DNA from: Polaribacter ponticola
GTDB taxonomy: Bacteria; Bacteroidota; Bacteroidia; Flavobacteriales; Flavobacteriaceae
DNA length: 64,000 nucleotides
Assembly: GCF_026191475.2 (NCBI RefSeq)
Contig: NZ_JAOSLC020000003.1
Location: 1 to 64,000, forward strand
Direction: 5' to 3'
Positions 1 to 64,000 of this stretch are shown here, one piece after another (the stretch's first letter is position 1; each line of letters begins with the position of its first letter). A model generated the notes under the pieces. That model had not been told where the DNA came from. It made no database searches and worked only from the letters and a program-made list of their open reading frames with translations. A program made the translations under genes and the position numbers.

Positions 1-10
1 GCGGTAGTTA

Positions 11-1102
11 TTATTCCACAAGGTTACTATTCAGAACTATTTCTCTTATTTCTCTTTCAAAGTGGAAAAAGATATTGCTATCTTCATTATATACATTTTC
101 TAATACAATTACATCTAAATCCTTTTCAGGTACAAAAAATTTGAATGAACCAAATCCGATTCCTTTTCCACCGTGCCCAATATTGGTTAAGGGTTCATTA
201 CTTATACAAACTCCGTAGCCATATCCTACTTTTTCTTTACCAAACACGTTAAAAAAATCTGTAGTATGATTAAAACTAGTCATTAGTTTATAGGTTTGGG
301 GATTTATTAATTTGCCATTATGAAGGTTTTTATCCCAAATATTCAAGTCATATGCATTTGAAATAATTCCACCTGCAGGAATAAAATCTTTCCATCCTTC
401 TTCGGAATTCACGATTGTATTAATATCAACAAGAATAAATTCATTATTTGTTCCTCTATACCCATTAATTAGTCCATTATTTGCTTTACCCAATTCATAG
501 CAATAGCTATTATGCATTTCTAATTTTTTAAACAAATTATTAGCTAAGTCAATATATTCTTTACCAGTTACTTTTTCGATTATTCTGCCTAACAATCCAT
601 ACCCAACATTGCTATAATAGAATTCTGTTCCTGCGTCAAAAAGTAAAGGTTCGTCAATACTTGTAATTCCAGAAGTGTTATTAAGTAACTGATGAATTGT
701 TACCGTGTCCGCCCAAGTTTGCTTGATTTCAGGTAAATACTTACTAATAGGGCTTTTTAAGTTTAATTTTCCGTTATCAACTTCTTTTAGAGTTAAAACA
801 GCTGTAATTTGTTTGCTGTTCGATTGAATTCGGAAGTTGTCTTTTAGAGTAATTGGTATTTTGTTCTCAAAATTTGAATAACCATACGCTTTTGAATATT
901 TTATATCTCCATTTTGAGTAATGAGTATAACACCATTAAAATATCTTGGACTAGTTGTTTGTATCAAACTATCAATCTTCGCAGAATAGTCATCTATTTG
1001 TTTATTTGTTTTATTTATTCTGTTCTTATCTTTATTGGTGTTATTACAACTTATAATTATCAAGGCAAGGAATAGAATTAAAAACTTATAAATTTGTTTC
1101 AT
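11..1102 (-). CDS. C1: serine hydrolase, beta-lactamase/PBP4 family lipoprotein
   Basis: A 363-residue exported protein with a lipoprotein signal (hydrophobic start ending IISC near residue 19). It shows the serine beta-lactamase-like fold: SxxK as SNSK near residue 95, a YSN triad (YSNVGYG) near 165, and HGG (GHGGKGIGF) near 309. The family holds D,D-peptidases, esterases and class C-like enzymes; the substrate cannot be told. Its leader is interrupted three to five bases before the ATG by the nested cassette C2, so its own upstream region now lies at about 2591-2635. A related enzyme is in C24. Confidence 0.8.
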   Translation of the reverse strand: MKQIYKFLILFLALIIISCNNTNKDKNRINKTNKQIDDYSAKIDSLIQTTSPRYFNGVILITQNGDIKYSKAYGYSNFENKIPITLKDNFRIQSNSKQITAVLTLKEVDNGKLNLKSPISKYLPEIKQTWADTVTIHQLLNNTSGITSIDEPLLFDAGTEFYYSNVGYGLLGRIIEKVTGKEYIDLANNLFKKLEMHNSYCYELGKANNGLINGYRGTNNEFILVDINTIVNSEEGWKDFIPAGGIISNAYDLNIWDKNLHNGKLINPQTYKLMTSFNHTTDFFNVFGKEKVGYGYGVCISNEPLTNIGHGGKGIGFGSFKFFVPEKDLDVIVLENVYNEDSNIFFHFEREIREIVLNSNLVE

Positions 1103-1107
1103 AATAT

Positions 1108-1229
1108 CGTGTTTGTGTATGATTTCGTTGCGTGTTTAAGCACTAAAGTTAGCAAATAAATCACAGATAGAAAGTCCGCGAGGACTTTCGTAAGTAGGCT
1201 ATAACTAGCAATGAATTATAGCGGTGTTG
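1108..1229 (-). repeat. A1: attC-like site, family I, carried by nested cassette C2
   Basis: The arm around 1114-1130 pairs with 1209-1224 through about 13 pairs with one bulge, so it is more decayed than other copies. The inner hairpin GAAAGTCC-GCGA-GGACTTTC is at 1170-1189. It lacks the usual CAAC at its left edge because C2 and this site were inserted at a non-attC position (see findings). Confidence 0.75.
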
Positions 1230-1377
1230 CCATTAGTACTTTTTATTCCGATTTTGTCTTCTTTTTTGTTTGATTGTTTCTCTTCTTGTTTTTGAAGTTG
1301 AAAAGCTCAAAATTTTTGACAATTGCTCTAATATGTTTCTTGAAACTTTTGAGGGTCTATATTTAAATACCATAAGC

Positions 1378-1965
1378 CTATTGTTCTAATGAAATTATTA
1401 ATTCATTAACTCTATCAATTCTCGGGTTAATTTCTTTTTTAACTCTTATCTTATTTAAGAAATATCCATAAATACCTATTCCTATTGTAGCTACATTAAT
1501 AAGAACAATTAGATATATTGGAATCTTTTCCCAAATGCTGATAGTAGATAATAACATTATTGGGTAAACAGGTAAAATTCCCCAATACGAATATGTTTTA
1601 AGGAATTTTTTCTGCACTTGAAGATATTCCTTGTTTTTTTTGAGATAATTTAGATAGTTTTCTTCGAAATCATTAGGTTGAAACTTTTTAACAGCTCGGT
1701 ATTTAATTATTAAATAAATAGCACAAATAATCATTAAGGCTAATGCTATTTTTGTTAGGATGAATGGAATCTTGAAAAATAAAAGAATAGATAATAAAAC
1801 TCCAAATACAGCTAAAAGTGTCTCTGAAAGTTCTAAATAGTTCCACCATCTGTGTAAACGTTTTAAACTTGATTGCAATTCTATCATTAATTTAGATTTC
1901 TCAAATTTTATACGCTCTTGATTACTGGACGATTGCCAGATTTTAATTAATTCATCTTCAATCAT
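1378..1965 (-). CDS. C2: membrane protein co-transcribed with an ECF sigma factor
   Basis: 195 residues with two hydrophobic hairpins (residues about 43-90 and 125-170) separated by a basic, charged stretch. Its start overlaps the stop of the sigma factor by four bases, so it is translationally coupled. By position it could be the anti-sigma partner, but I see no zinc HxxxCxxC motif, so that is inference from context. No family recognised. Confidence 0.7.
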   Translation of the reverse strand: MIEDELIKIWQSSSNQERIKFEKSKLMIELQSSLKRLHRWWNYLELSETLLAVFGVLLSILLFFKIPFILTKIALALMIICAIYLIIKYRAVKKFQPNDFEENYLNYLKKNKEYLQVQKKFLKTYSYWGILPVYPIMLLSTISIWEKIPIYLIVLINVATIGIGIYGYFLNKIRVKKEINPRIDRVNELIISLEQ

Positions 1966-2465
1966 AATGTTTCATTTATACAGTTAAATAATTTTGATTT
2001 TATCCGCTTGATTTTTACTGCTATATGATTTTCAGATAATCCAAGTATATCTGAAATTTCTCGGTATGCTAATCCTTCCAAGTATAGAGCTACTATTGCT
2101 TTGTTCCCTTCATTCAATTTTTTGATACACTTTCTTAAAGCTATTAGTTTTTCATTGTCTTCTTCATTATCTTTTCCAGAACTCATATTAGCAATAGTCA
2201 TACTATCTAATCTTATAAATCGATTTTGGTTCTTTGTATGTTTAGATTTAAAGCGAAGACAAACATTTAATGCTATTCTAAATATCCAAGTGTCAATAGA
2301 TGAATTTCCTTTAAATGAACTCATTGACTTCCAAATGTGAACTAAAACTTCCTGAAATAGGTCTTTAGAATCTTCATTATTATCGGAATAAATCGAGCAA
2401 ATTCTATATAATTTATCCTGATTTTCTTTTAAGGCAGAAAGAAATGTGGTTTTCTGTTTTTCCAT
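1962..2465 (-). CDS. C2: ECF-type RNA polymerase sigma factor
   Basis: 167 residues. Region 2 is at about residues 10-75 (DLFQEVLVHIWKSMSSFKG, then STSIDTW-like SSIDTWIFRIALN) and region 4 HTH is at about 110-160 (GLAYREISDILGLSENHI). This is the usual length for an extracytoplasmic-function sigma. It would redirect RNA polymerase to a small regulon. It is the first gene of a two-gene operon. A sigma factor as cassette cargo is unusual. Confidence 0.88.
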   Translation of the reverse strand: MEKQKTTFLSALKENQDKLYRICSIYSDNNEDSKDLFQEVLVHIWKSMSSFKGNSSIDTWIFRIALNVCLRFKSKHTKNQNRFIRLDSMTIANMSSGKDNEEDNEKLIALRKCIKKLNEGNKAIVALYLEGLAYREISDILGLSENHIAVKIKRIKSKLFNCINETL

Positions 2466-2591
2466 TTTTAATACTTCCCTTTACTACTTTAGTTCCAAAA
2501 GTTTCCTAAATATGACACTTTCGTAGTTTTTTTAGTAGAAAAAGATGATAAAACTGTTATTTACTGTCGTTCGGTCAGTATTAATGGCAAC

Positions 2592-2635
2592 TTATTTTAT
2601 CGATAGTACCGAATTTTTGTTTAATTACCGCCAAC
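2592..2635. other. Displaced leader of C1 (scar right of nested cassette C2)
   Basis: C2 ends at its own terminal repeat (ATTAATGGCAAC, ending 2591). The following 44 bases belong to another cassette: they end TAATTACCGCCAAC, which complements the GCGGTAGTTA at window positions 1-10, the left end of C1. So this is the 5' leader of C1, separated from its gene by insertion of C2 plus A1. Confidence 0.65.
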
Positions 2636-2758
2636 GTGGTTGTGTATTGAATGTTGCGGTTTTGTGAACGAGGAATTTCCAGCGGAAATTCAGAAGTTTG
2701 CAAAGAAGCAACAAGTTTTAGTTTAGCTAAATATTGCAATATTTAATACACGGTGTTG
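2632..2758 (-). repeat. A2: attC-like site, family III variant
   Basis: Arms GTGTATTGAATGTTGC and GCAATATTTAATACAC form 16 pairs, with G.T at stem positions 8 and 12. The inner hairpin is GAATTTCC-AGC-GGAAATTC, unlike the common GCGA-capped one. Core CAAC at 2632-2635, GTTG at 2755-2758. About 120 bases between this site and the C3 stop codon hold no gene that I can see. Confidence 0.8.
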
Positions 2759-2877
2759 CAAGTAGTAGTTTTTTTTAGTTTATAATTCCATTTTATTTTT
2801 CAGGTTTTGCTGAGATTCCCACGTTTTATTTTCAGAATATGAGTAAATTATCAGGTTTTATAATTTCCTTAAATAAG

Positions 2878-3396
2878 CTAATCATTAAATTTACCATTAG
2901 TGATGCGAATAGTATCACTATCATCATTTTCATTATATAAAGTAAATTCAAATGTTCCTTCTAGATTTGTGTCAGAAGCCTCTGTAAGTAATAATTTACC
3001 TGAATTCATTTTTGATAAATATTTTTTATCATTATAAATTAATACAGAACTTGTTTCAGGATTATTAAAAGGATAGTTTATTACACCATTACTATTTTCC
3101 AGAGAAAATTCATTTTCATCAATAAAGTTTTTAATATAAATTACCATTTTACTTTTTTCATTTTTAACTTGTATTACTAAATCTAAATCGCTATTAAACT
3201 TCATAAAACTTAAACCATCATTACCTGGGCTTGTACTAATTAAATTAGTATTTCCTTTTGGAACAAATAATTCCCCATTTATATAACAAGAAAATGTATC
3301 TTCTACAAACTCTAACTTATCATTTTTCTCACAAGAACTAATTGTTAATATTGTTAAAATACCGTAAAAAAGTAATATTATTTTTCTTTTTTTCAT
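2878..3396 (-). CDS. C3: hypothetical lipoprotein
   Basis: About 172 residues from the preferred start MKKRKIILLF, which opens a lipoprotein signal ending TISSC; in-frame ATGs further upstream (to 3441) would put charged residues before the signal. The mature part is rich in beta-prone, charged residues and has one Cys in FSCYING. No family recognised; presumably anchored in the outer membrane. It is the only gene of its cassette. Confidence 0.65.
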   Translation of the reverse strand: MKKRKIILLFYGILTILTISSCEKNDKLEFVEDTFSCYINGELFVPKGNTNLISTSPGNDGLSFMKFNSDLDLVIQVKNEKSKMVIYIKNFIDENEFSLENSNGVINYPFNNPETSSVLIYNDKKYLSKMNSGKLLLTEASDTNLEGTFEFTLYNENDDSDTIRITNGKFND

Positions 3397-3478
3397 ACTA
3401 GGAAATTTTTTCATAAAGGGAAACTTATAATATTTATACACGAAATTTTCGAGTTTGAGTGGTTTTCACTATTACTTG

Positions 3479-3602
3479 CAACGGTTTGTATATGATTTGT
3501 TGCGTGGTAAAGCAATAAACATTACAAGTACAAGCCGACTAGAAAATCCGCAAGGATTTTCGTAAGCAAGCTATAACTAGCAATAAATTATATACGTTGT
3601 TG
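3479..3602 (-). repeat. A3: attC-like site, family I
   Basis: Arms GTATATGATTTGTTGC and GCAATAAATTATATAC, 16 pairs with G.T at positions 7 and 12. Hairpin GAAAATCC-GCAA-GGATTTTC at about 3542-3561. Cores CAAC 3479-3482 and GTTG 3599-3602. Practically identical to A9 up to the point where IS110-A1 interrupts A9. Confidence 0.85.
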
Positions 3603-3614
3603 GCGGTAGTTTTT

Positions 3615-4325
3615 TTATTTTTTCGGTAGATATAATTTCATTTCTCCGATTTCTAATTCGTCTAAATGTCCCATTTTACTTTCGTCTTTTGTTATCAAGT
3701 GCATATGCAAAAATGAGTCGTGATGTGTAAAAACTCCTTTATGTTCAGTCGAGAAAAATCCAATTATTTCAGCGTCTTCGTTTATGATATTGTAATTTGT
3801 CTGTCCTTGATGTGCTTCATCTGGCGATGACACTTTCGTTCCTTCGGGCAAATTCTGAATATGGATAATCGCACTTGAAACCTGTCCGATTAATTTAAAG
3901 GTGAAAGGTCTTTTGAATTCAGTCGTTTTGTCGTCAATGAATTTTTCTAAATCTTGAATTGTCTTAACGTCAGAAGGCAATTCTATTTCGTTCCATTCAG
4001 TTACGTTTCCATAAACAAAGAAAGGTGCAGAAGTATTATATGTTTTTTCAACGGTCATTGTCGAGTCCGAAGTCACTTTCGAAACGTAGCTTTTTCCGTT
4101 ATTAATCAGCAATTCGCCTGTTAAATAGCTCACTGGTCCAAGTCCATAAAGTCCATTTTTGTCCGAAATAGTTTCAAGGTTAATGCTACTTCCTAATTCG
4201 CCTTTCCACATCACGTTTTTCATTGCACCAACAATTTTTACATCATTTTTGTTTTGTTTAGTTTTTGTATTACAACTTGACAATAATAGAATTAGAATTG
4301 AATTTATTAAAATTACGTGTTTCGT
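3615..4325 (-). CDS. C4: acetolactate decarboxylase-like lipoprotein
   Basis: About 236 residues. YGLGPVSYLTGELLINNGKSY and, near the end, LHMHLITKDESKMGHLDEL match the alpha-acetolactate decarboxylase fold (PF03306), in which His-x-His and a later His bind zinc. Unlike the cytosolic enzyme it carries a lipoprotein-type leader (ILILLLSSC), so it would act outside the cytoplasm; substrate unknown. The open frame runs to a TTG at 4379, but that lies inside a terminator hairpin. The more natural start, ACG-AAA-CAC at 4325, looks like a mutated ATG, so the start is unresolved. Confidence 0.7.
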   Translation of the reverse strand, partial: TKHVILINSILILLLSSCNTKTKQNKNDVKIVGAMKNVMWKGELGSSINLETISDKNGLYGLGPVSYLTGELLINNGKSYVSKVTSDSTMTVEKTYNTSAPFFVYGNVTEWNEIELPSDVKTIQDLEKFIDDKTTEFKRPFTFKLIGQVSSAIIHIQNLPEGTKVSSPDEAHQGQTNYNIINEDAEIIGFFSTEHKGVFTHHDSFLHMHLITKDESKMGHLDELEIGEMKLYLPKK

Positions 4326-4344
4326 TTTATTAAGATTTTGGATT

Positions 4345-4388
4345 AAAAAAATGGGAGTTTGGTTTAACCAAACTCCCAAAAAAAATGA
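4345..4388 (-). terminator. Intrinsic terminator after the Cys-repeat gene
   Basis: A 13-bp perfect stem (TGGGAGTTTGGTT / AACCAAACTCCCA, 4352-4378) is flanked by A-runs on both sides, so on the - strand it is followed by seven Ts. It lies directly after the stop at 4391 and would end that transcript before the decarboxylase-like gene. It could work in both directions. Confidence 0.8.
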
Positions 4389-4390
4389 TA

Positions 4391-4699
4391 TTATGATTTG
4401 TTTTTGTCTTTACCAACTAAACAACCCACTTTTTTATCTACTGTACAGTTTTTTCTTTCTTCTTCTGTACAAGTTGTTTTGTTTAATGAACAAGTATTTT
4501 TATCCATTTTACAATTTTTCATTTCTTCTGCCGAACAAGTTTTTTTGTCCATTTTACAGTTTTTCTTGTTTTCTGTAGAACAAGTTTTCTTGTCCATTGT
4601 GCAGGTTTTCGTTTGCTCGCAACATTGTTTTTTTTCTTGAGCATTAACGCTTAAATTTACAAATAGTAAAAGCGTTACAATTGAAATTATATTTTTCAT
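4391..4699 (-). CDS. C4: secreted Cys-rich repeat protein
   Basis: 102 residues with a signal peptide (cleaved after VNAQ, residue about 20) and then a string of about five imperfect repeats of the form K(N/T)CxMDKKTC(S)xEE. There are 13 or so cysteines, spaced CxxxxKxC. This suggests a small metal-binding or metallothionein-like periplasmic protein; that is inference from composition. It is followed by a strong terminator and sits between a decarboxylase-like gene and another Cys-containing small protein. Confidence 0.7.
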   Translation of the reverse strand: MKNIISIVTLLLFVNLSVNAQEKKQCCEQTKTCTMDKKTCSTENKKNCKMDKKTCSAEEMKNCKMDKNTCSLNKTTCTEEERKNCTVDKKVGCLVGKDKNKS

Positions 4700-4742
4700 T
4701 GTATTATTTTTTAATGATTATTTATTTTTTAAAGTCTAAATT

Positions 4743-5081
4743 TCAGCAGATAATTCTCGGAGGTTGCCAAATTTTAGAAACGTAATCATTAAGGATAATT
4801 TCTTTAAAGTAAAACTTTTGTTTTTCTGAAATTTCTATGAGATCAACGTCTGAAAAATCAAAGTTATGTGTTGGGAAAACAAAAATTGTTGAAAGATTAA
4901 TGTTTAATATGCAATTTTGTTTGTTATAAGGATTATTGTCTTCTTTATTTTTTTGTTTATTGCAGTGTTGCATACATTTATTTTCACAAGAATCCATTAT
5001 TTCCATTTTCACGAATTTTGCAACTGGAAGCAAATTCAAGAAAATAAAGTAAGTTAATAATATGATTTTTGTAAATTTCAT
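4743..5081 (-). CDS. C4: small Cys-containing protein, possibly metal-related
   Basis: 112 residues: hydrophobic N-terminus (residues 4-22), then CENKCMQHC near residue 32, and a C-terminus ending SKIWQPPRIIC. I recall similar short proteins next to copper or heavy-metal efflux genes in Bacteroidota, but cannot confirm this here. It is first in the C4 cassette; the Cys-repeat gene follows 44 bases after its stop, so the two are probably co-transcribed. Confidence 0.6.
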   Translation of the reverse strand: MKFTKIILLTYFIFLNLLPVAKFVKMEIMDSCENKCMQHCNKQKNKEDNNPYNKQNCILNINLSTIFVFPTHNFDFSDVDLIEISEKQKFYFKEIILNDYVSKIWQPPRIIC

Positions 5082-5151
5082 TTCGCAAATATAACTATTT
5101 TTTCTATTTTAATATAATCGTCTTTTTTAGCACGATTTTTATAATTACCGC

Positions 5152-5279
5152 CAACGTTGTTGTATATGGTTTGTTGCGTGTTTCAAGCAACTAATTTAGT
5201 AAATAATTACCGACAAAGAAAGTCCGCGAGGACTTTCGTAAGTAAGCGAGAAGCCAGCAATAAATTATATACGGTGTTG
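5152..5279 (-). repeat. A4: attC-like site, family I
   Basis: Arms GTATATGGTTTGTTGC and GCAATAAATTATATAC: 16 pairs with G.T at 7, 8 and 12. Hairpin GAAAGTCC-GCGA-GGACTTTC at 5218-5237. C4's right terminus ATTACCGCCAAC matches its left terminus GTTGGCGGTAG at 3599. Confidence 0.88.
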
Positions 5280-5292
5280 GCAACTGGCTTTT

Positions 5293-5793
5293 TTACTTCC
5301 TTCTTTTCCTTAAATTAATTATTTCATTTTTTAAATCTAATTGCGCTCTGAATTTTAAATCAGAATCTTGTTTTTCCTGTTTATATTCCTTTTCATATGT
5401 TTTTAAAAATACAGATGTTGCAGTTATATTACTTTCAGGATATTCAAAACTACGAGTTAGTCCACAAGTATTTATTTCAATTTTATTTTCGTACGAATTT
5501 GCATAAATCAACCACTTTCCTTTTCCGTCAATTATTGGTCCACATTGATTGTCATAAATTCCACTATATATTTTTCCAATTTCATCTCCGTTAAAAGATT
5601 CCACAACTCTTATTTCAAAAGTGTTTTTTTCAGAGTCAATTTTCAAGACTTCTCCTATAAAAATACATTCAGAATTTTCAAATTCGTAATCTTGAACAGC
5701 TTTCAAACTTTTCGGAATAGAACAATTACAAGCAATTGCTTTTGTAGAAATTAAAGTTATAATCAGAAGTAATATGTTCAATTTATATTTCAT
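5293..5793 (-). CDS. C5: secreted NTR/TIMP-like protein
   Basis: 166 residues with a signal peptide ending IACNCS. The mature start CNCSIPKS, followed by a stretch of the type ECIFIGEVLKI, then further cysteines (NQCGP, NTCGL), resembles the netrin-like/TIMP fold found in small bacterial exported proteins. The last 35 residues are charged and probably helical. Function unknown; single-gene cassette. Confidence 0.65.
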   Translation of the reverse strand: MKYKLNILLLIITLISTKAIACNCSIPKSLKAVQDYEFENSECIFIGEVLKIDSEKNTFEIRVVESFNGDEIGKIYSGIYDNQCGPIIDGKGKWLIYANSYENKIEINTCGLTRSFEYPESNITATSVFLKTYEKEYKQEKQDSDLKFRAQLDLKNEIINLRKRRK

Positions 5794-5807
5794 TTTTTGC
5801 TTGTTGC

Positions 5808-5999
5808 CAACGGTTTTGTATATGGCTCGTAGCTTGCAAATTAGAAAATTATTTTCGTATCAAGCACAAGCCAGATTTTTAAATTTTACTACTTATTTTA
5901 CTTTTTGGGAAGTTGTCAAATTTAAAAATTTGGCGACTTCCCAAATATGCCTTAACTTCGATTAAGCAACTAACTAGCTATGAGCTATATACGTTGTTG
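5808..5999 (-). repeat. A5: attC-like site, family II (long)
   Basis: Arms GTATATGGCTCGTAGC and GCTATGAGCTATATAC form 16 pairs with G.T only at positions 7 and 12, though most other bases differ from A4. The interior has an extra long hairpin, about 5905-5945, of 19 pairs (TTGGGAAGTTG... / ...CGACTTCCCAA) including two wobbles. Confidence 0.85.
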
Positions 6000-6018
6000 T
6001 AAGTAGTGCTTTTTTCAT

Positions 6019-6813
6019 TCACTTACTTAATTTCAATATCCTAAACGCTCCTTGAATTACCAATACAAAAACTATTGTTTCAATAATCAAATCAGGTTTA
6101 CTTGAACTCAACCAATTTACTAAAATTCCTGCGATTATTACTCCTAAATTTATAATCACGTCATTTGAGGTAAAAATCATACTTGCTTTCATATGTGCCT
6201 CGTCTTTGCTCTTTGATTTTTGCAAAATGTAAAGACAAATTCCATTTGCAATAAGTGCTAAAATCGAAACGATAATCATTGTTGAAAAATCAGGCAGTTT
6301 TTCGTCTCCAAAAAATCTCCTTAAAACTTCCAAAAATCCAATAATCGCAAGTGTGATTTGAAAATATCCAGCAAGTTTTGCAATCCGCTTTTTCTTAATC
6401 AAGGTTCCGCCAACCGCCAACAAGCTAATTCCGTAAACAAAACTATCGGCAAGCATATCCAAACTATCGGCAACAAGTCCCATAGATTTTGATATAATTC
6501 CTGTCGTCATTTCGATAATGAAAAACGCGAAGTTTATTGCAAGAACAGACCAGAGTATTTTTTTCTGATTTTCGTTTTCTTTAAATTCCGTTTGGTCGGT
6601 TTGTTCAGTCGATATTTTCTTTCCGCCTAAATTCAGTTCGATAACTGACTTTTCGATTTGGTCAATTTCTCCGCTGTGAAAAACTGTCAATTTTCGGTTC
6701 GGAATATCAAAGTTCAAATTCGCAATACTCGAAATTCCGTCCAATTTCATTCGGATTAGATTTTCCTCTGAAGGACAATCCATTTTGGTAATTTCAAATA
6801 TTGTTTTATTCAC
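6019..6813 (-). CDS. C6: cation diffusion facilitator with N-terminal HMA-like domain
   Basis: 264 residues. Residues 1-70 resemble a heavy-metal-associated fold but carry MDCPSEE instead of the Cys-x-x-Cys metal site. From about 88 on there are five to six membrane spans, with the CDF signature GLVADSLDMLADS in an early helix (Asp pair expected to bind metal). Likely an inner-membrane Zn/Co/Fe exporter of the CzcD kind. It is short for the family, with no long His-rich loop or cytoplasmic tail. The metal is not predictable. Confidence 0.82.
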   Translation of the reverse strand: MNKTIFEITKMDCPSEENLIRMKLDGISSIANLNFDIPNRKLTVFHSGEIDQIEKSVIELNLGGKKISTEQTDQTEFKENENQKKILWSVLAINFAFFIIEMTTGIISKSMGLVADSLDMLADSFVYGISLLAVGGTLIKKKRIAKLAGYFQITLAIIGFLEVLRRFFGDEKLPDFSTMIIVSILALIANGICLYILQKSKSKDEAHMKASMIFTSNDVIINLGVIIAGILVNWLSSSKPDLIIETIVFVLVIQGAFRILKLSK

Positions 6814-6842
6814 TTGGTTTATTGGTTTTCGTGCATTACTTA

Positions 6843-6969
6843 CAACGTGTTTATATATGGTTTGTTGCGTGAATATTGCACTAAATTAATAAATAAAAAC
6901 TAACAAAGAAAATCCGCGAGGATTTTCGCAAGTAAACGATTTGCTAGCAATAAATTATATATGTTGTTG
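6843..6969 (-). repeat. A6: attC-like site, family I, duplicated as A16
   Basis: Arms ATATATGGTTTGTTGC and GCAATAAATTATATAT: the first pair is A-T instead of the usual G-C, a compensatory change. Hairpin GAAAATCC-GCGA-GGATTTTC. Identical to A16 (37965-38091), and both sit left of the same lipoprotein gene. Confidence 0.88.
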
Positions 6970-56779: not shown

Positions 56780-57061
56780 TTAGTCTGTTGGGGTTTCTTG
56801 AAATCTAGTAAATCCGAAAACTTCTATTTGATTTCCATTTATTCTAAAAACGACTGTATATCCTTTATATATTAAATCTCTAACTAATTCATTATCAAAG
56901 TATATTGATTTCCTAAATAAATATGGGTTTTCAGGAATTTCTTTTATTCTATTAATAAGTTCAGTCTTTAATTTACTAGCAGATTTAGGACTGTTTTTAG
57001 ATAGATATTTCAATTGTTTCTCAAGTCTTGAAACAAAAGTCTCTTTATATATTATTGTCAT
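56780..57061 (-). CDS. C30: RelE/ParE-family toxin
   Basis: 93 residues, the usual size. KSIYFDNELVRDLIYKGYTVVFRINGNQIEVFGF matches the core strands of the ParE/RelE fold, with R in RDL and the final F-R-F-Q stretch. Its stop/start spacing to the antitoxin gene is eight bases. Would inhibit either gyrase or the ribosome; which one is not predictable. Toxin-antitoxin cassettes are the classical stabilisers of long integron arrays. Confidence 0.82.
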   Translation of the reverse strand: MTIIYKETFVSRLEKQLKYLSKNSPKSASKLKTELINRIKEIPENPYLFRKSIYFDNELVRDLIYKGYTVVFRINGNQIEVFGFTRFQETPTD

Positions 57062-57069
57062 AAAACTAG

Positions 57070-57288
57070 TTAAACTATTCCATTTAACCTATTTTCAAAC
57101 TCCTTCTGAGAAATAAAGGTTGCTTTTCCTCTCTCAATTTCACTTAATTCCTTCTGTAAATAATTTTTTGTAGCTATAAAATCAGAACTTTCACTTACAA
57201 TTTCAATTTCTTCTTTATTGAATTTACTCAATAACCAGATGAATTTGTCATAGACTTTTTCGTTGATTTTTAACTGTATAGTGTACAT
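57070..57288 (-). CDS. C30: antitoxin partner
   Basis: 72 residues. An N-terminal part with beta-strand then helix (MYTIQLKINEKVYDKFIWLLSKF), and a C-terminal ERGKATFISQKEFENRLNGIV tail typical of the toxin-wrapping end of small antitoxins. Encoded first, as usual. Confidence 0.75.
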   Translation of the reverse strand: MYTIQLKINEKVYDKFIWLLSKFNKEEIEIVSESSDFIATKNYLQKELSEIERGKATFISQKEFENRLNGIV

Positions 57289-57368
57289 AATATTTTATTT
57301 TATACAAAAATACAAAAAGAGTTTTAAACTTGTCTTTTTTCTAGTACGAGTTTTTTTGCTGTTTTTTA

Positions 57369-57496
57369 CAACGTGTTTATATATGGTTTGTTGCGTGTTT
57401 CAAGCCACTAATTTAGTAAATAATTACCGACAAAGAAAGTCCGCGAGGACTTTCGTAAGTAAGCAAAAAGCCAGCAATAAATTATATATGGTGTTG
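57369..57496 (-). repeat. A30: attC-like site, family I
   Basis: Arms ATATATGGTTTGTTGC and GCAATAAATTATATAT: first pair A-T, as in A6. Hairpin GAAAGTCC-GCGA-GGACTTTC. Confidence 0.87.
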
Positions 57497-57519
57497 TGCA
57501 CTGTAATTTTTTTCATTCC

Positions 57520-58341
57520 TTATTTTTTCCAAAAGTATTCTTTCTGATAGGTGAAAATTAAACCAGCTTGTATTCTACTTGTTTCTGTTGTTTGTTCAAA
57601 CCTTACATCAAAATCAAGTCTATCCAACAATCTCATTTTTGTTCCAATTACACCTCCATAACCAAAGTCATTAAAATAATTTACTGAAGGACCAATATAT
57701 GGTGTTAACCAATATGGTGTTTTATTATCAAAAATATGATGAATGTAGTTCAAATGAAATCCCCATTCTTTGTCAGTAAATTGATAATAATTATTGTCAT
57801 ATTCTCTATTTATTACACTTGTCCCATATTCCAATGCAGAATGATTGAATGTTTTTCTAAACCCAAAAGACCAACCAAAACTATTTTTACTTTTATTATC
57901 AAGTGAATAAATTGGATAAACATATAAATCATTTGAGAGAACTGCTGCGCTTAATGCAACAACAGCAATTGCGACATAAGCCATTGCTTCGTCATTATTA
58001 GAATTCCCTCCACTTCCATAGCTTGGGTTATCGTCCTTACAATTATTTTTTACATTACTCCAGCATCTGCAACAAGGTTTTCTTCCTAAACTTTGAGTTG
58101 CATTATATTCGTCTGTGTATTTTATGTCCCCTTTACAATTATTTAATCCTGGGCAATTACTTCTACTATGATATGCATAAGAATATTCTCCAGTACAAAC
58201 ATAAACTGTTTGAGCGATTTTTAAATCTTCTGTATGTTCCTTTTCAAAAATCGAGTGTTCGTGCTTTTCATTTAATGTTAAATCTTGAGAAAATGTGTTA
58301 AATGATAATAGTATTAATGTTAAAATAAATAAATTTTTCAT
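57520..58341 (-). CDS. C31: exported protein with Cys motif and beta-barrel-like C-terminus
   Basis: About 273 residues from ATG 58341 (MKNLFILTLILLSFNTFSQ, signal peptide); an upstream extension to 58431 is unlikely. Residues 45-95 hold a Cys-rich unit, VYVCTGEYSYAYH..CPGL..CKGD ... PCCRCW, then a hydrophobic stretch (146-165) and a beta-rich region ending TYQKEYFWKK that looks like outer-membrane strands. Function unknown; likely in the envelope. Confidence 0.65.
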   Translation of the reverse strand: MKNLFILTLILLSFNTFSQDLTLNEKHEHSIFEKEHTEDLKIAQTVYVCTGEYSYAYHSRSNCPGLNNCKGDIKYTDEYNATQSLGRKPCCRCWSNVKNNCKDDNPSYGSGGNSNNDEAMAYVAIAVVALSAAVLSNDLYVYPIYSLDNKSKNSFGWSFGFRKTFNHSALEYGTSVINREYDNNYYQFTDKEWGFHLNYIHHIFDNKTPYWLTPYIGPSVNYFNDFGYGGVIGTKMRLLDRLDFDVRFEQTTETSRIQAGLIFTYQKEYFWKK

Positions 58342-58392
58342 ATTTTTTCTTTTTCTATTTTGTTTTCGGTTAGTTCGGTTTTTTATAGTGCA

Positions 58393-58518
58393 CAACGTTG
58401 TTGTATATGGTTTGTTGCGTTTTTGAAGCACTAAATTTAGTAAATAAAAACGGAATAGAAAATCCCTAAGGATTTTCGTAGGTAGGTGAGTACTAGCAAT
58501 AAATTATATACGCTGTTA
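58393..58518 (-). repeat. A31: attC-like site, family I, CTAA loop
   Basis: Arms GTATATGGTTTGTTGC and GCAATAAATTATATAC. Hairpin GAAAATCC-CTAA-GGATTTTC, the only copy whose loop does not fit GNNA. Right core GTTA overlaps the stop codon of the C32 gene. Confidence 0.86.
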
Positions 58519-59301
58519 GCACTTGTTTTTTCTTTCGTAAAATGTTTTTATGTCTCCTTTTTGATTTAAATGTATTCCGTAAAATATTCCATTATAGTTA
58601 AAAGACTTGTTGTCATAATTTTTATCATAATTATTGTAATGATAAATAATTTCGTCTTTTAAGAATAAAATGACTTTCTTAATTAAAAGTAATAATTCAT
58701 TCCAATCATTTATGTTACTAAATTTAACCATTTCTCCTTTTCTATGAATTTCATATTTTTCAATATGACCAAGTAAAATATGAATGAAATATTTAGGTTT
58801 TAGTTTAATACATATTTGCTCAGACAAAGAATAAACTTCTGTTTGAAATGTTTCTATACAATTCAAAAGTTCTTGATTATTTTTGAAGTTATATTTATAT
58901 CTTAAATTTCGATCTTCTCGAATGTTTTTAGATAGTGATTTTGCAAGTTCTAAAAGTCCAGGGTTGTCAATTTTTTGAATAGTTTTCACTACATTCAAGG
59001 AGATGCTTTTTAATTCATTTTTAATATCACTAATATTATTTATAGGCTGATTTTGCTTATTTATGGAATCTAAAATATCAATATTTAAATCTTTATATTT
59101 ATTATGATTAAGCTTTAAAAAAAGCTTCTCTACATTTTCTAAAGGACTTTTTCTTTTTTCAAGTATTGAAAGTTGTACATACTTACAAATGTATTGTGGG
59201 TCGTTTTTTTCTATATAGATAGTACATTCTTTTAGAAATTTCATAGGGTCAGTTTCCAATAAATATCTCAGATTCTCTTCCTTTTCAACTTGATTGTTCA
59301 T
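58516..59301 (-). CDS. C32: hypothetical protein
   Basis: 261 residues, soluble, rich in Lys, Asn, Glu and Leu; mostly helical (NVEKLFLKLNHNKYKDLNID, ELLLLIKKVILFLKDEII). No motif recognised. The TAA stop lies in the TAAC core of the attC-like site, so gene and recombination site share bases. Confidence 0.65.
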   Translation of the reverse strand: MNNQVEKEENLRYLLETDPMKFLKECTIYIEKNDPQYICKYVQLSILEKRKSPLENVEKLFLKLNHNKYKDLNIDILDSINKQNQPINNISDIKNELKSISLNVVKTIQKIDNPGLLELAKSLSKNIREDRNLRYKYNFKNNQELLNCIETFQTEVYSLSEQICIKLKPKYFIHILLGHIEKYEIHRKGEMVKFSNINDWNELLLLIKKVILFLKDEIIYHYNNYDKNYDNKSFNYNGIFYGIHLNQKGDIKTFYERKNKC

Positions 59302-59315
59302 TTTTCTATAAGTGC

Positions 59316-59440
59316 TAACGGTTTGTATATGAAAAGTAGCAAGTTAATATATACTTACTTTCAGTTTAGAAACAATCATAGCAGAAAAGAACTAAACTTG
59401 AAGTCTAGCCTTAAACTGCTATTTTTTATATACTTTGTTA
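59316..59440 (-). repeat. A32: attC-like site, family III
   Basis: Arms GTATATGAAAAGTAGC and GCTATTTTTTATATAC, the same stem as A8, with a related interior. Cores TAAC/GTTA. Confidence 0.82.
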
Positions 59441-59448
59441 GCAACTGT

Positions 59449-60825
59449 TTATTTAATAAATTTCAAATCTTTCTCGATTGCTTCAATCATTGTTCCTGCA
59501 ATATTTCTTTCAGATATACCTTCAATACCTTCAAGTCCTGGAGATGAATTAACTTCTAATAATAAAGGACCTTTTTCGCCTCTTATAATATCTACACCTG
59601 CAACTTTTAACCCCATTGTTTTAGTAGCTAGTAAAGCTACTTTTTTCTCTTCTTTAGTAATTTTCACAAGAGATGCAATACCTCCCATATGAATGTTTGC
59701 TCTAAATTCACCGGGTGCAGCTGTCCTTTTCATACTAGCTATTATTTTACCATTTACAACAAAACATCTAATGTCTTCTCCGTTAGCTTCTTTTATGAAT
59801 TCTTGAACTAAAATATTCGCTTTTAAACTTTTGAAAGCATTTATAAGACTTTCAGCAGCTTTCTTTGTTTCAGCTAAAACAACACCTTTACCTTGAGTTC
59901 CTTCTAATAACTTAACTATTAAAGGTGCACCACCTACCATATTTATTAACTCTTCTGTATCAAGAGGAGAGTTTGCAAAACCAGAAATAGGAATTGGTAA
60001 TCCACTATTTATTAATAATTGTAAAGCAAATAATTTATCTCGAGATTTAGTAATTGAAGATGCAGAGTTTAAACAATAAACTCCCATAGCTTCAAAATGA
60101 CGAGTTAATGCACAACCATAAAAGGTAGCACTTGGTCTAATTCTTGGAATTATTGCATCAAAATCAGACAATATCCTTCCTCCTCTGTAGTGCATTTCAG
60201 GGTTTTTTCCATCAAGTTTTATATAACAATCTTTAATGTTTAAAAACTCAACTTCGTGACCTTTTTCTTCTCCAGCTTCAATAATTCTTCTATTACTGTA
60301 AAGGTTTGGGTTACTCGCTAATAGCCCTATTTTTAGCCCTGTTTTTTTGACAACTTTAGAATGGTAGTGTTGCTTTAATAAATCGTCAGTAGGTTGTCCA
60401 AGTAAACAGTAAGATTCAGGGTCAACTAACATTTTTCCTGTCATTGCTTGTCTACCAAGTAGCATTCTATAACCCATATTATCTCTGTTAGTAAGAGTAA
60501 GTTCAACATCCCAAGTTTCCTCAGCTATTGATAAGGTAGTTTTAATAACAAATCTTAACTCGCTATTACCACTAGAACTTTTTACTTTTCGTTTGTCGTG
60601 TACTTTAGCTTCACAACTAATAGTGGTTTTACCATCGTTTTGTAATGGGTGTACATCAAATTTTATCCAAGGAATTCCATTTTTCTTAAAAGGAGTTATA
60701 TTTGTAGCGTGTAATGCAGAAGTTTTTGCTCCTGAGTCTACTCTACATTTAACAGCAGGTATGTTAATTTCAGGAAAACTACACCATTCATCACGTCCTA
60801 CTATTATTTTATTTTCAGAATTCAT
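59449..60825 (-). CDS. C33: RimK-like ATP-grasp ligase fused to RimB-like domain
   Basis: 458 residues. Residues 5-145 are the ATP-dependent zinc protease/RimB-like fold (VKCRVDSGAKTSALHA, LLGRQAMTG); residues 160-458 are RimK-type ATP-grasp (PRIRPSATFYGCAL, LEGTQGKGVVLAE, VQEFIKEANGEDIRCFVV, LLLEVNSSPGLEGIEG). RimK adds glutamates to proteins such as S6; fused forms occur in Bacteroidota and Gammaproteobacteria. Here it sits alone in a cassette. Full-length and apparently intact. Confidence 0.88.
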   Translation of the reverse strand: MNSENKIIVGRDEWCSFPEINIPAVKCRVDSGAKTSALHATNITPFKKNGIPWIKFDVHPLQNDGKTTISCEAKVHDKRKVKSSSGNSELRFVIKTTLSIAEETWDVELTLTNRDNMGYRMLLGRQAMTGKMLVDPESYCLLGQPTDDLLKQHYHSKVVKKTGLKIGLLASNPNLYSNRRIIEAGEEKGHEVEFLNIKDCYIKLDGKNPEMHYRGGRILSDFDAIIPRIRPSATFYGCALTRHFEAMGVYCLNSASSITKSRDKLFALQLLINSGLPIPISGFANSPLDTEELINMVGGAPLIVKLLEGTQGKGVVLAETKKAAESLINAFKSLKANILVQEFIKEANGEDIRCFVVNGKIIASMKRTAAPGEFRANIHMGGIASLVKITKEEKKVALLATKTMGLKVAGVDIIRGEKGPLLLEVNSSPGLEGIEGISERNIAGTMIEAIEKDLKFIK

Positions 60826-60858
60826 TAATTTATATTATTAGTTATTTTTAATTGTTGC

Positions 60859-60986
60859 TAACGTTGATGTATAAGCTTTGTTGCGATGGTTTAGCAGTAA
60901 AGTTACTAAATAATTACCGACCAAGAAAGTCCGCGAGGACTTTCGTAAGTAGGTAAAAAGTTAGCAATAAAGTTTATACGGTGTTG
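60859..60986 (-). repeat. A33: attC-like site, family I
   Basis: Arms GTATAAGCTTTGTTGC and GCAATAAAGTTTATAC: 16 pairs, G.T at 7 and 12. Hairpin GAAAGTCC-GCGA-GGACTTTC. Confidence 0.87.
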
Positions 60987-60999
60987 TGTGTAGTGCTTT

Positions 61000-61677
61000 T
61001 TATTTTCTTATTTCTGGTTCTTCTTTTAATAGAAAAAAGCCTTTCACTTTATTTCCAACATAATATGTCAAACCTTTGTTAGCTGAAAATCCTATTACAA
61101 CTCCAATTCCAAATGGAATAGCTTTTTCAACAGCTTTTCGAGTAAATGTTATTCCTACTTTTTTAAATATTTCTTTCACAGCGATTAAAGTAGAACCTTT
61201 CAAATTTTGTCTAACTATATTTATAAAAGCCTTCGTTCCTAATTGTTTTCCTCCTTCTTTAGAAGCTTCGCTAACTGCTCCAAGACCTGCAATCATTAAA
61301 CACAATCTTTTTTGTTCTTCAATTTCAATATCGTGTCCACAAATTGTTGCTATTGCCATAGTCATTTCAATCTGATATTTCATTGACATTGCTGCATCAG
61401 CTGTAGCTCCTCCAAATGTAGCTATAACAGTTCCTAAACCAGGAATTATTCCTGTTAATGCTGTTCCTGCACCAACAAAAGCAGTATAGTAAGAATAATT
61501 AGAAATTATCTTGTCGATAATCATAATATTAATTTCATCTTCTGTTTTTTTATTCTGGTGCTTTTCTAAATATTTACTTTTTAAACTTAAAGTTTCCTTT
61601 TTTATAACAGAAGGTTCTGCTAAAATTAATTCAATTGCTTTCAGTAAAGTTGGTTTGTCATTTTGATTTTCTTCCAT
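61000..61677 (-). CDS. C34: EcsC-like protein
   Basis: 225 residues. Glycine-rich hydrophobic helices (AFVGAGTALTGIIPGLGTVIATFGGATADAAMSMKYQI split over two helices, and AIPFGIGVVIGFSANKGL) match the EcsC family (PF12787), whose biochemical role is not established. Predicted to associate with the membrane. Confidence 0.75.
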   Translation of the reverse strand: MEENQNDKPTLLKAIELILAEPSVIKKETLSLKSKYLEKHQNKKTEDEINIMIIDKIISNYSYYTAFVGAGTALTGIIPGLGTVIATFGGATADAAMSMKYQIEMTMAIATICGHDIEIEEQKRLCLMIAGLGAVSEASKEGGKQLGTKAFINIVRQNLKGSTLIAVKEIFKKVGITFTRKAVEKAIPFGIGVVIGFSANKGLTYYVGNKVKGFFLLKEEPEIRK

Positions 61678-61787
61678 TTTTCAATAATTTTTATTTTGGT
61701 TAGTTCTTAAGGTTTTGTGATTATAAAAAAGACCTTACAATATTTTTTTCTAAATTTTAATTCAGCGTTCGGTTTTTGCATTACACA

Positions 61788-61912
61788 CAACGATTATGTA
61801 TAAGATTAGTGGCGTGTTTAAGCACCTAATTTAGCAAATACAAACCGAATAGAAAATCCGCGAGGATTTTCGTAAGTAGGTGAGGACTAGCCATTAATTT
61901 TATACGGTGTTG
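61788..61912 (-). repeat. A34: attC-like site, family I
   Basis: Arms GTATAAGATTAGTGGC and GCCATTAATTTTATAC: 16 pairs, G.T at 7 and 12. Hairpin GAAAATCC-GCGA-GGATTTTC. Confidence 0.87.
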
Positions 61913-61924
61913 TAAAACGTTTTT

Positions 61925-62593
61925 TTATTCAGATATTACATATGAAATTTTAACATAGTTAGGGGAATATTTTAAAAGTTCATTTGTTCCTTCTTCATTT
62001 TCTTTCAAATATCGAACACCACAAAATCTTCTCACTCCATATTTTTCATCCAACCACGATGAAGCATATATCAACAGCGGAATTTTTTTATTCAGTTCCC
62101 ATTTTGTATCAATATATTTTCTCCAATTAAGTGAGTTTTCTTTTTCAGTATTTTTCATTTCGATACTGTACCCTGTCATTGTAAATCCATAAGTTTTAAT
62201 TGATAATTGGCTTTTATTTTCTGAGGGAATATCTTTAGTTATTATTGTTATTTGGTTTATATAGTCATAAAATGGTTGTTCAGATTTAAAATAAGTATAG
62301 GTATTATTAGTGTTTACTATTGTGTCGGAAGAAATCATTTGTCCATTTAAATATTCATCCATAACTATATAGAGTTTATATCTTTTGTCAAATTTTCCGA
62401 GTTTGAACTTATTAATCCGTATTCCTTGAAATTCTAACATTTCAACTAAATCAATTAATTCTATATCGTCAATTTCTGATATTTGATGTTCTTTTTGAAT
62501 TTGAGGTCGGTCATCTTGCTTGAATTTTTCTTGAGAAAAACTATTAATGGAAACTAAAAATAATAAGGTCAAGACAAATTTTAATAATTTCAT
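61925..62593 (-). CDS. C35: hypothetical secreted protein
   Basis: About 222 residues from ATG 62593 (MKLLKFVLTLLFLVSINSFSQ, signal peptide); the open frame to 62653 reads the attC-like site. The mature part shows alternating strands (YKLYIVMDEYLNGQMISSDTI). No Cys near the signal end, so secreted rather than lipidated. No family recognised. Confidence 0.6.
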   Translation of the reverse strand: MKLLKFVLTLLFLVSINSFSQEKFKQDDRPQIQKEHQISEIDDIELIDLVEMLEFQGIRINKFKLGKFDKRYKLYIVMDEYLNGQMISSDTIVNTNNTYTYFKSEQPFYDYINQITIITKDIPSENKSQLSIKTYGFTMTGYSIEMKNTEKENSLNWRKYIDTKWELNKKIPLLIYASSWLDEKYGVRRFCGVRYLKENEEGTNELLKYSPNYVKISYVISE

Positions 62594-62618
62594 ATTTATT
62601 TTGTATTTAAATGTTTTA

Positions 62619-62746
62619 CAACGTTGTTGTATATGGTTTGTTGCGTGTTTCAAGCAACTAATTTAGTAAATAATTACGGACAAAGAAAGTCCGCGAGGAC
62701 TTTCGCAAGTAGGTAAAAAGCCAGCAATAAATTATATACGGTGTTA
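62619..62746 (-). repeat. A35: attC-like site, family I, identical to A24
   Basis: Identical to A24 (50990-51117); the sequence to its left differs from the first base before CAAC, the sequence to its right is the same cassette. Confidence 0.88.
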
Positions 62747-62758
62747 TATGGCGTTTTT

Positions 62759-63376
62759 TTATTTCAAAAATGGAATTGCTAAAATATATTCGTTCCTCAA
62801 TCCTCTTCGACTTTTTCTAACATTCAAAATTATAAACACTATATTAATTAAATATAATAAAAATAGCATAATCGTTGGTATTGAGAAATGATATATTAAC
62901 GCATAAATAGAATTCTTTATGTTAAAACTAAATGGAAAAGATAAAAATTTTTCTCCGAACCACATATTTATAGGAATTAGTAAAACATATAATGTCAAAA
63001 CCCAAGTAATTTGAAAATTCACTATCTTTTTTCCACAATCATCTACATACTTTATTTTTCCCTTTTTCAAAATCCACATTATAAATGGAATTATTATTCC
63101 TAATATTGGATGAATAATAAAGAAAAGGGAACTCCAATTCAGTTGTTGTATGTATCCTTTGTCTTCGATAACTTCCCATTCTAAAAGTTCATCTGGTGTT
63201 ATATTTAGGGCTTGGGTTATTTTAATCAGAGTATCTCCTCTCGAAATTGTTCCAGTTTTTTCGATACGTTGGATTGTTCTTAAACTAAGTTTTGATTCTT
63301 CAGCCAATTGTTCTTGAGAAAATCCTTTTTGATTTCTTAGGTTTTTGATTTTAATTGCTAAGTTTTGATTATTCAT
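62759..63376 (-). CDS. C36: XRE regulator with membrane domain (copy 2 of C25)
   Basis: Identical 205-residue protein to that at 51131-51748 (HTH_3 then four membrane helices). The duplication ends at ATGCCATATAACG; the site to its right (A36) differs from A25. Confidence 0.82.
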   Translation of the reverse strand: MNNQNLAIKIKNLRNQKGFSQEQLAEESKLSLRTIQRIEKTGTISRGDTLIKITQALNITPDELLEWEVIEDKGYIQQLNWSSLFFIIHPILGIIIPFIMWILKKGKIKYVDDCGKKIVNFQITWVLTLYVLLIPINMWFGEKFLSFPFSFNIKNSIYALIYHFSIPTIMLFLLYLINIVFIILNVRKSRRGLRNEYILAIPFLK

Positions 63377-63489
63377 TTTAGATGTTTTAAATATTACTTA
63401 GCAAAGATATTTTGAAACTTTATTAATTCTTGTGTCATTATTATGTCAATCTTATGACATTTCTGCCAATGTTTGGTTTTAATGCCATA

Positions 63490-63614
63490 TAACGGTTAGT
63501 ATAAGAATAGTAGCGGATTTTTACCCACTAACTTTTCGGTTAAACACTGACCTTTTTTACATTTACTTACTTTCACTTTAGCTATTAAACCGCTATTATT
63601 TTTATACAATGTTG
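63490..63614 (-). repeat. A36: attC-like site, family III
   Basis: Arms GTATAAGAATAGTAGC and GCTATTATTTTTATAC: 16 pairs, G.T at 7 and 12. Interior with CTAACTTTTCGGTTAAACAC blocks as in family II, but short. Confidence 0.82.
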
Positions 63615-64000
63615 TGTGTAGTTTTTATTAATTCAGGTGTTTCTGATAAAAGCTTTTCATTCTTTATTTCTATTACATTTATCAGATACAGTAGATTATT
63701 AAAATTAACAGGTAGTGATAAATCTAATTCGGATATTTTCAATAAAAATGAAGTTCTATCCATTTTTAAAATATGCTTACCAATTGAACTGTCATTATTA
63801 AGAATTTCAATCAATTCAGTTTTCAAGTTTGACAATTGGAATTGAAGCCTAAATTTATTTCTCAATAAAGCTTCCCAATTCTTACTTTTAAAATGACGAT
63901 ACGATAATTCATTGAAAAGATTTTTTAAAGCAATATCATTAGTCTCTAAACTTGCATATATTCCATTTAGAAGTCTTTCACTTTCTTTATGTTCTTTCCA
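63602..64000 (-). CDS. C37: hypothetical protein, partial
   Basis: The frame is open to the right edge, so the start is outside the window; at least 132 residues (…WKEHKESERLLNG... to ...LIKTTHNIV). Helical and soluble (QLSNLKTELIEILNNDSSIG). The last residues, TTHNIV, are coded within the attC-like site A36. No family recognised. Confidence 0.6.
   Translation of the reverse strand, partial: WKEHKESERLLNGIYASLETNDIALKNLFNELSYRHFKSKNWEALLRNKFRLQFQLSNLKTELIEILNNDSSIGKHILKMDRTSFLLKISELDLSLPVNFNNLLYLINVIEIKNEKLLSETPELIKTTHNIV

Follow-up and report, generated by a model that had tools for sequence, protein, structure and literature searches.

A chromosomal integron-like cassette array next to a tyrosine recombinase without the I2 helix in Polaribacter ponticola

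Organization of the array

The first 64,000 bases of contig C3 (NZ_JAOSLC020000003.1) of Polaribacter ponticola, a member of the Flavobacteriaceae with a genome of 3.58 Mb, carry a long array of gene cassettes separated by attC-like sites. We call this stretch the window; C3 coordinates continue its numbering. The C3 array contains 45 cassettes in total and reaches C3:82122, beyond the right end of the window, within which 34 cassettes are complete in that the cassette end falls inside it. A tyrosine recombinase gene (C3:82223-83347, minus strand, 374 amino acids) lies 18 kb past the right end of the window, with an attI-like site (C3:about 82120-82145) just 3' of it. The recombinase, hereafter the integrase, the attI-like site and all 45 cassettes share one direction. 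With a covariance model built from 25 of the array's own sites, the window yields 35 attC-like sites (E <= 0.0017). These all lie on the + strand, opposite the cassette genes; matches on the minus strand reach no better than E 0.011. Genome-wide, the model gives 66 matches, including scattered single sites and those at C4:1177-14775, which likely continue the C3 array. Scans of the 64-kb window for tRNA and tmRNA genes found none, and an Rfam scan at gathering thresholds gave no match.

The original prediction, drawn from the letters of the window, described an integron-like array of 37 cassettes and 36 sites, with all genes on one strand and no integrase in view. The array and the lack of an integrase inside the window both hold, whereas the count falls to the figures above. 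Cassette genes do lie on one strand, but the + strand is not empty: it has seven open reading frames of at least 100 amino acids, of which four are IS110-family transposases and three overlap minus-strand frames.

Cassette ends

Comparing the first bases of a cassette with the reverse complement of its last bases reveals a match private to that cassette. A typical end has GTT, seven mostly private bases, G (start) versus A (end), and then two or three more agreeing bases; private agreement in the C3 array thus amounts to ten bases, one G·T wobble and two to three further bases. Bases 5-10 of both ends agree fully in 35/45 C3 cassettes (mean 5.67/6), compared with 0/40 (mean 2.30) for the two halves of one attC site as a control and a mean of 2.29 for shuffled end pairs, the largest among 10,000 shuffles being 3.07. 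The original prediction had named termini no more complementary than shuffled pairs as the outcome that would overturn its integron reading, and this comparison leaves that reading standing. It correctly described the complementarity as exceeding the length of the usual R box, a feature seen as well at the loci of integrase relatives, and the two pairs of termini that it quoted as examples are where it placed them. Among the ten incomplete pairs, six differ at base 10 only, one shows a one-base slip and one a mismatch at base 5, while two are mis-paired boundaries: the one at 1226 has its own partner ending at 2591, and at 45032 a site has possibly been lost.

Base 11 is G/A in 44/45 C3 cassettes, which gives a G·T wobble on the folded + (bottom) strand of the excised circle and an A·C mismatch on the other strand. 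We also noticed a sub-type of end, at 5276, 19773, 24735, 56765, 59437 and C3:75393, with T/A at base 10 followed by G/A at base 11. In the array as much as 7 kb can separate the two ends of a cassette, which come together only in the circle; we therefore infer that their match is a trace of selection on the circular form.

Folding of the attC-like sites

The 25 own sites are close copies of one another, with a predicted fold that leads from AAC/GTT through a spacer and a 17-bp stem to an inner hairpin, and with G·T pairs at four positions in 25/25. A second alignment, assembled by end matching rather than with the covariance model, comprises one window site and 54 sites from 32 other loci; over these 55 sites the outer stem is the same, with compensatory changes in 15/19 stem pairs. 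Both the motif AACG..TGTT and the G·T pair adjoining the crossover triplet are present in 55/55, and G after AAC on the bottom strand is a canonical attC trait as well (PMC2727003). When folded with DNA energies, the bottom strand does better than the top in 34 of the 36 own array sites whose core measures 100-140 bases, as well as in 77/85 sites from 32 loci. The elements of an attC fold (R stem, central spacer, L stem, terminal structure and bottom-strand preference) are all predicted here, with covariation. The form that a site would take in the circle folds better than its array form in 36/36 cases (mean -25.1 vs -18.6 kcal/mol). Four long sites of about 190 bp (Table 1) have the outer stem in common and inner sequences of their own.

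Strand choice in canonical attC depends on extrahelical bases, two to three of which are expected on the R''-L'' arm of each site (PMC2727003). The sites described here do not consistently share that feature. There is no stem bulge in 19/25 own sites and in 25/55 sites of the second alignment, and single-base bulges on the R''-L'' (3') arm number one among the 25 and ten among the 55. The absence of extrahelical bases is a tendency, not a rule.

Work on Polaribacter phage P12002L reports that one of its attC sites was recombined by the class 1 integrase IntI1, with no recombinants from the top strand (PMC9892861). This phage (NC_028924) has four matches to our covariance model (E <= 4e-6), and the published attC2 may be one of these. 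A BLAST search with one site returned no match in phages, and against plasmids it matched two from Tenacibaculum finnmarkense. The sites in this lytic phage suggest that phages may ferry cassettes.

The integrase

The integrase matches PF00589 at 139.9 bits and is thus a tyrosine recombinase. R231, K258/K259, H320, R323, H346 and Y355, which we take to be the catalytic R-K-H-R-H-Y residues, are invariant in 16 sequences. Its score against the integron integrase model TIGR02249 (189 bits) is below the cut-off of 265, and the best NCBIfam profile, XerA-like NF040815, reaches 211.1 bits against a cut-off of 220, so neither profile claims it. The I2 helix, the additional domain of IntI, is absent: the spacing between GKKDR and HxLRH is 63-64 residues in 32/32 relatives from three tree groups, versus 105 in 9/9 IntI from genomes of the same phylum and 71 in 7/7 XerD; one further recombinase encoded by P. 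ponticola has 63. An alignment to VchIntI4 splits around what is presumably the I2 region, matching on both sides of the missing part, and an alignment to XerA (5hxy) has no gap of I2 size. The original prediction had pointed beyond the right end of the window to a tyrosine recombinase with the extra helix of IntI; the recombinase is there, without the helix.

An AlphaFold2 model from 16 sequences (mean pLDDT, the predicted local distance difference test, 80.9; pTM, the predicted template-modelling score, 0.47) places a short loop where I2 would be and predicts an N-terminal alpha/beta part of about 90 residues; some 95 N-terminal residues fall outside the stretches matched in solved structures. 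Foldseek ranks XerA first and VchIntI4 next. An unrooted tree separates XerD from IntI and the new groups by a branch with 100/100 support; it does not settle how IntI and these groups branch (approximately unbiased test, p 0.36 and 0.25), and a clade of integrases without IntI is neither supported nor rejected. The closest named relatives are from Polaribacter. A Zobellia homologue bears the UniRef name 'Integron-related Integrase', and thus a likeness to integron integrases has been annotated before.

Arrays beside related integrases

Relatives of the integrase are widespread, occurring in 98/299 genomes of the family (E <= 1e-70) and 123/395 of the class (E <= 1e-65). Canonical IntI above its cut-off occurs in 105/395 genomes of the phylum and 1/395 of the class Bacteroidia. 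From 520 loci we kept 80 named ones (10 Polaribacter, 15 Flavobacterium; 74/80 Flavobacteriaceae by title). The contig ends less than 1.5 kb behind the integrase in 32/80, probably an effect of repeats. An attI-like motif (CGCATATAAACAA|GTT and variants) follows the integrase in 66/80 loci, and 7 of the remaining 14 had under 150 bp left and so fell outside the examination. Of the 66 motif loci, 50 have a first cassette with matched ends (at most one mismatch); the match lies within 2,500 bp at 49 and includes the A/G wobble at 41, whereas 305/3,395 upstream GTTs used as a control matched within 2,500 bp, 16 with the wobble. This cassette starts 82-138 bp after the stop codon in 49/50 loci and at 14 bp in one. 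Judged from sequence, an attI at whose GTT the cassettes start thus adjoins the integrase, on the 3' side of its gene.

A wobble-type cassette starts within 200 bp in 36/49 loci with at least 1,500 bp downstream, against 28/342 upstream windows. Strict cassettes, which have 10/10 end bases, the wobble and agreement at the next base, number 145 downstream of the integrase (324 kb) and 2 upstream (691 kb) in the 80 loci. With 20 further loci included, 214 follow the direction of the integrase and 10 are reversed. All 162 covariance model matches in 47 loci are, as tabulated, on the strand opposite to the integrase. Arrays also stand behind more distant integrases: within the same family at 15 of 20 loci, whose integrases are 38-44% identical in 17 and 47-50% in 3, and in other families of the class at 8 of the 14 loci that have 1,300 bp or more downstream, with one of the eight doubtful. 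A fixed chromosomal position of the integrase was considered and is not supported, since the sigma and anti-sigma genes that neighbour it in P. ponticola recur upstream in 1/75 loci and SerA in 2/75.

On two Chryseobacterium plasmids (L205, L206) an integrase relative of about 45% identity is followed by the attI motif, suggesting that plasmid-borne platforms may exist. Integrase matches occur in 133 plasmid records, 50 of them Acinetobacter; those listed match residues 161-373 at 56% identity.

Signs of cassette movement, including that of likely drug-resistance genes

Four units recur within the array with new neighbours, at 97.7 to 99.8% identity (two are given in Table 1). For two of these pairs, the matching sequence breaks off at either side no more than about 11 bases from AAC. 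The third stops likewise on the left and continues into the next, similar site on the right; the fourth stops on the right and on the left runs about 18 bases into neighbours that have a private end in common. Since the recurring unit comprises site core and gene, attC lies 3' of the gene, and the array is one of gene-plus-attC cassettes bounded at GTT, as in an integron.

Among 27 DNA matches of at least 350 bases between loci, five begin within one base of GTT, the others being mostly gene bodies only or running past GTT; three of the five link different named or numbered genera (Polaribacter/Algibacter, g41/g122 and Gaetbulibacter/Allomuricauda). One cassette of 1049 bp is 99.8% identical between Mariniflexile maritimum (Flavobacteriaceae) and genome G404, which belongs to the class of P. 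ponticola and not to its order, and is 97.5% identical in G371, of the same genus as G404. It stands first at attI each time, while identity between the neighbouring integrases is 47-50% over 266-270 residues. The edges of the match are no more than about 15 bases from GTT, though Mariniflexile has only 120 bp beyond it. The best model for its gene is the lincosamide nucleotidyltransferase Lnu(H) (452.5 bits, below the cut-off of 540), and the whole unit is found, 97.5% identical and annotated lnu(I), on a Riemerella anatipestifer plasmid (NZ_CP073240.1).

That plasmid carries aadS and two tet(X) genes in units with such ends, and an aph(3') unit with one mismatch. It has six strict end pairs (one reversed and likely due to chance), compared with a mean of 0.3 in shuffles. 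From about 116 to 16512 it reads partly as a cassette array, in the order aadS, tet(X), lnu(I), tet(X), aph(3'); bases 974-37356 include no annotated tyrosine recombinase. The record that we analysed is that of strain RCAD0416, as named in PMC13148043, which places aph(3')-IVb on the plasmid of this strain and reports that the gene entered a Riemerella genome by transformation without flanking homology, together with 27 bp before it and 140 bp after. Those authors describe attC-like folds (mfold), and the section concerned mentions no recombinase and no array family. From its ends we predict 29 + 138 bp for this cassette, compared with the published 27 + 140; the sum of 167 is the same, and the two-base shift lies within the GTT common to both junctions.

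Discussion

Our findings make it very probable that this is a chromosomal integron-like array whose adjoining recombinase, although it lacks I2, likely excises cassettes as circles and inserts them at an attI-like GTT. The integrase would release a cassette as a circle and insert it at the GTT triplet of the attI-like site behind its own gene. It would recombine the folded bottom strand of attC, as IntI does, and the conserved G·T pairs, which are A·C mismatches on the top strand, would mark that strand in place of consistent extrahelical bases. In the circle, the cassette ends would pair into a 13-14-bp stem that is broken once the cassette is in the array, so that insertion would be favoured over excision. 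The array thus appears to work like an integron, yet we do not file it as one because the defining integrase domain was tested for and is absent. The integron-like arrangement of the original prediction is supported by the private ends, attC-like hairpins, an attI-like site, a recombinase past the right end, where it had been expected, and recurring gene-plus-attC units; what did not bear out was the defining helix of the integrase.

Several observations weigh against this interpretation. The array form pairs no better than with the end of a wrong partner (both -18.6 kcal/mol), and every fold described here is a prediction. Stem bulges occur in 6/25 own and 30/55 aligned sites, so extrahelical bases may yet play a role. 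Among relatives with at least 1,500 bp downstream, 13/49 show no wobble-type cassette within 200 bp, and 28/342 upstream controls do; no cassettes were found at 5/20 more distant loci of the same family or at 6/14 of other families. No Riemerella name appears among the 120 integrase-matching proteins listed, most of which are nameless. Furthermore, we infer from sequence both that this enzyme moves the cassettes and that it does so on single strands.

Alternatively, the array may belong to an ordinary integron, with an IntI that has drifted and no longer has the I2 helix; we regard this explanation as unlikely. The alignment to VchIntI4 on both sides of the missing part and the grouping of IntI with the new groups opposite XerD, in an order left unresolved, would suit it. 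A recent loss does not fit, as I2 is absent in all 32 aligned relatives from three tree groups; an old loss would. The extra N-terminal part of about 95 residues, the common direction of integrase and cassettes, and the shortfall against TIGR02249 also count against such an origin.

A bystander role for the integrase, with cassettes moved by homologous recombination, XerCD or IS110 elements, seems very improbable to us. In its favour, homologous recombination could act between sites this alike, the window has four IS110 elements at its sites, and scattered single sites in the genome often carry IS110 sequence. Against this stand the excess of strict cassettes downstream over upstream of the integrase, the attI motif at a fixed distance behind its gene and the cassette, with its edges near GTT, that distant genomes have in common. 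Private end matches, moreover, would not be expected to survive exchange between similar sites. Least credible of all is a transposon-like nature of the units, with terminal inverted repeats private to each. Their ends do match as inverted repeats, but the recurring unit includes a site core that lies outside one such 'repeat', the ends differ between units while the core is common, and the core hairpin covaries.

The integron-like array resembles the sedentary chromosomal integrons, or superintegrons, of organisms such as Vibrio cholerae in having an integrase, an attI-like site and a long gene-attC array, with an AAC/GTT core, sites of about 120 bp, predicted bottom-strand folding and insertion sequences at attC. 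It differs from them in its I2-less integrase with an extra N-terminal part, in an attI 3' of the integrase with cassettes in the direction of that gene, in the private end match of 13-14 bp with its G·T pair, in cassettes of up to 7 kb, and in the lack of consistent extrahelical bases. Canonical IntI-type integrons occur in other classes of the phylum, where we know them from IntI genes alone, and the integrase here is set apart from theirs by the missing I2. XerA-like recombinases (NF040815; 5hxy) provide its best profile and first structural match, yet it scores below their cut-off, has about 95 more N-terminal residues and is linked to cassette arrays. With the attC-like 3' regions of Riemerella resistance genes (PMC13148043) the cassettes share unit length, a hairpin and homology-free, site-specific integration.

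The I2 helix has been held necessary for cassette capture and present in no other protein (PMC7790495). The many arrays adjoining I2-less integrases therefore make the need for I2 directly testable, and they offer a natural comparison for the origin of single-strand recombination. Searches with IntI and attC models may overlook such arrays. For Bacteroidetes proper, the IntegronFinder 2.0 paper mentions one complete integron, that of Salinibacter (PMC9024848), and PMC10013915 reports no integrons by IntegronFinder 2.0 in one Tenacibaculum genome, which we did not check for this integrase. Within open-licence PubMed Central papers, preprints being outside the scope, we found no description of such arrays or integrase in Flavobacteriia; the words integron and integrase are absent from the Tenacibaculum maritimum genome paper.

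We give roughly even chances to a broader proposal, namely that these loci form a second, class-wide integron lineage of Bacteroidia that recombines single-stranded attC without I2 or fixed extrahelical bases, choosing the strand by G·T pairs and using the circle ends as a ratchet toward insertion. The system also provides a mechanism by which resistance genes may move among Flavobacteriales, a movement so far unexplained. If the proposal is true, flavobacterial resistance cassettes would have their missing vehicle in the second lineage, and I2 would not be required for integron-type gene capture.

Cargo and insertion sequences

A Pfam scan of 40 window proteins left many cassette proteins without a match. 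Recognizable cargo includes part or whole type I, II and III restriction systems and genes for RND efflux, RimK-like, thioredoxin-fold and sigma-factor proteins; examples are listed in Table 1. With regard to possibly promoterless cassettes, the first open reading frame starts within 50 bases of the cassette start in 24/45 cassettes, and in one cassette none was found.

The four IS110 elements (about 10820-12136, 14998-16207, 17476-18700 and 38576-39800) are of at least two kinds and flank attC-like sites on one side or the other; their copies in other parts of the genome bring attC-like sequence along. IS1111-attC elements are known to sit at attC in integrons (PMC11187229), and targeting of the attC-like site by the IS110 elements is possibly RNA-guided.

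Table 1. Features of the window. attC-like sites were found with the covariance model and are entered as strand -, the matches themselves being on the + strand.
Feature	Position	Strand	Remark
attC-like site	1102..1232	-	
34 cassettes, GTT start to AAC end	1226..63493	-	two mis-paired in list, at 1226 and 45032
attC-like site	2629..2761	-	
attC-like site	3476..3605	-	
attC-like site	5149..5282	-	
attC-like site	5805..6002	-	long type
attC-like site	6840..6972	-	
attC-like site	7447..7577	-	
attC-like site	8387..8517	-	
attC-like site	10691..10819	-	interrupted by IS110 element
IS110-family transposase	10984..11994	+	element inserted in attC-like site
Example cassette	12137..14874	-	AlwI-type restriction endonuclease, DNA methylase
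attC-like site	14868..14997	-	interrupted by IS110 element
IS110-family transposase	15203..16174	+	element inserted in attC-like site
IS110-family transposase	17676..18668	+	element beside attC-like site
attC-like site	18699..18830	-	adjoins IS110 element
attC-like site	19583..19779	-	long type
Example cassette	19773..24615	-	type I restriction specificity and methylation subunits
attC-like site	24609..24741	-	
attC-like site	26749..26945	-	long type
Example cassette	26939..33959	-	7 kb; RND efflux (AcrB-type pump in two open reading frames, HlyD-type adaptor)
attC-like site	33953..34086	-	
attC-like site	37962..38094	-	
IS110-family transposase	38776..39768	+	element beside attC-like site
attC-like site	39800..39929	-	adjoins IS110 element
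attC-like site	41029..41161	-	
attC-like site	42561..42691	-	
Cassette unit (attC core + gene)	42565..43221	-	repeated at 51863-52519, 99.7%, new neighbours both sides
attC-like site	43215..43345	-	
attC-like site	43906..44037	-	
attC-like site	44842..45038	-	long type
attC-like site	50987..51120	-	
Cassette unit	50991..51865	-	repeated at 62620-63493, 99.8%, new neighbours both sides
attC-like site	51859..51989	-	
attC-like site	52513..52645	-	
attC-like site	54046..54178	-	
attC-like site	55595..55727	-	
attC-like site	56639..56771	-	
attC-like site	57366..57499	-	
attC-like site	58390..58521	-	
attC-like site	59313..59443	-	
attC-like site	60856..60989	-	
attC-like site	61785..61915	-	
attC-like site	62616..62749	-	
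attC-like site	63487..63617	-	

Reading frames are split in the AcrB-type pump gene (28228-31979) and in a XerD-like gene (C3:180266-180985), which suggests assembly frameshifts or decay.

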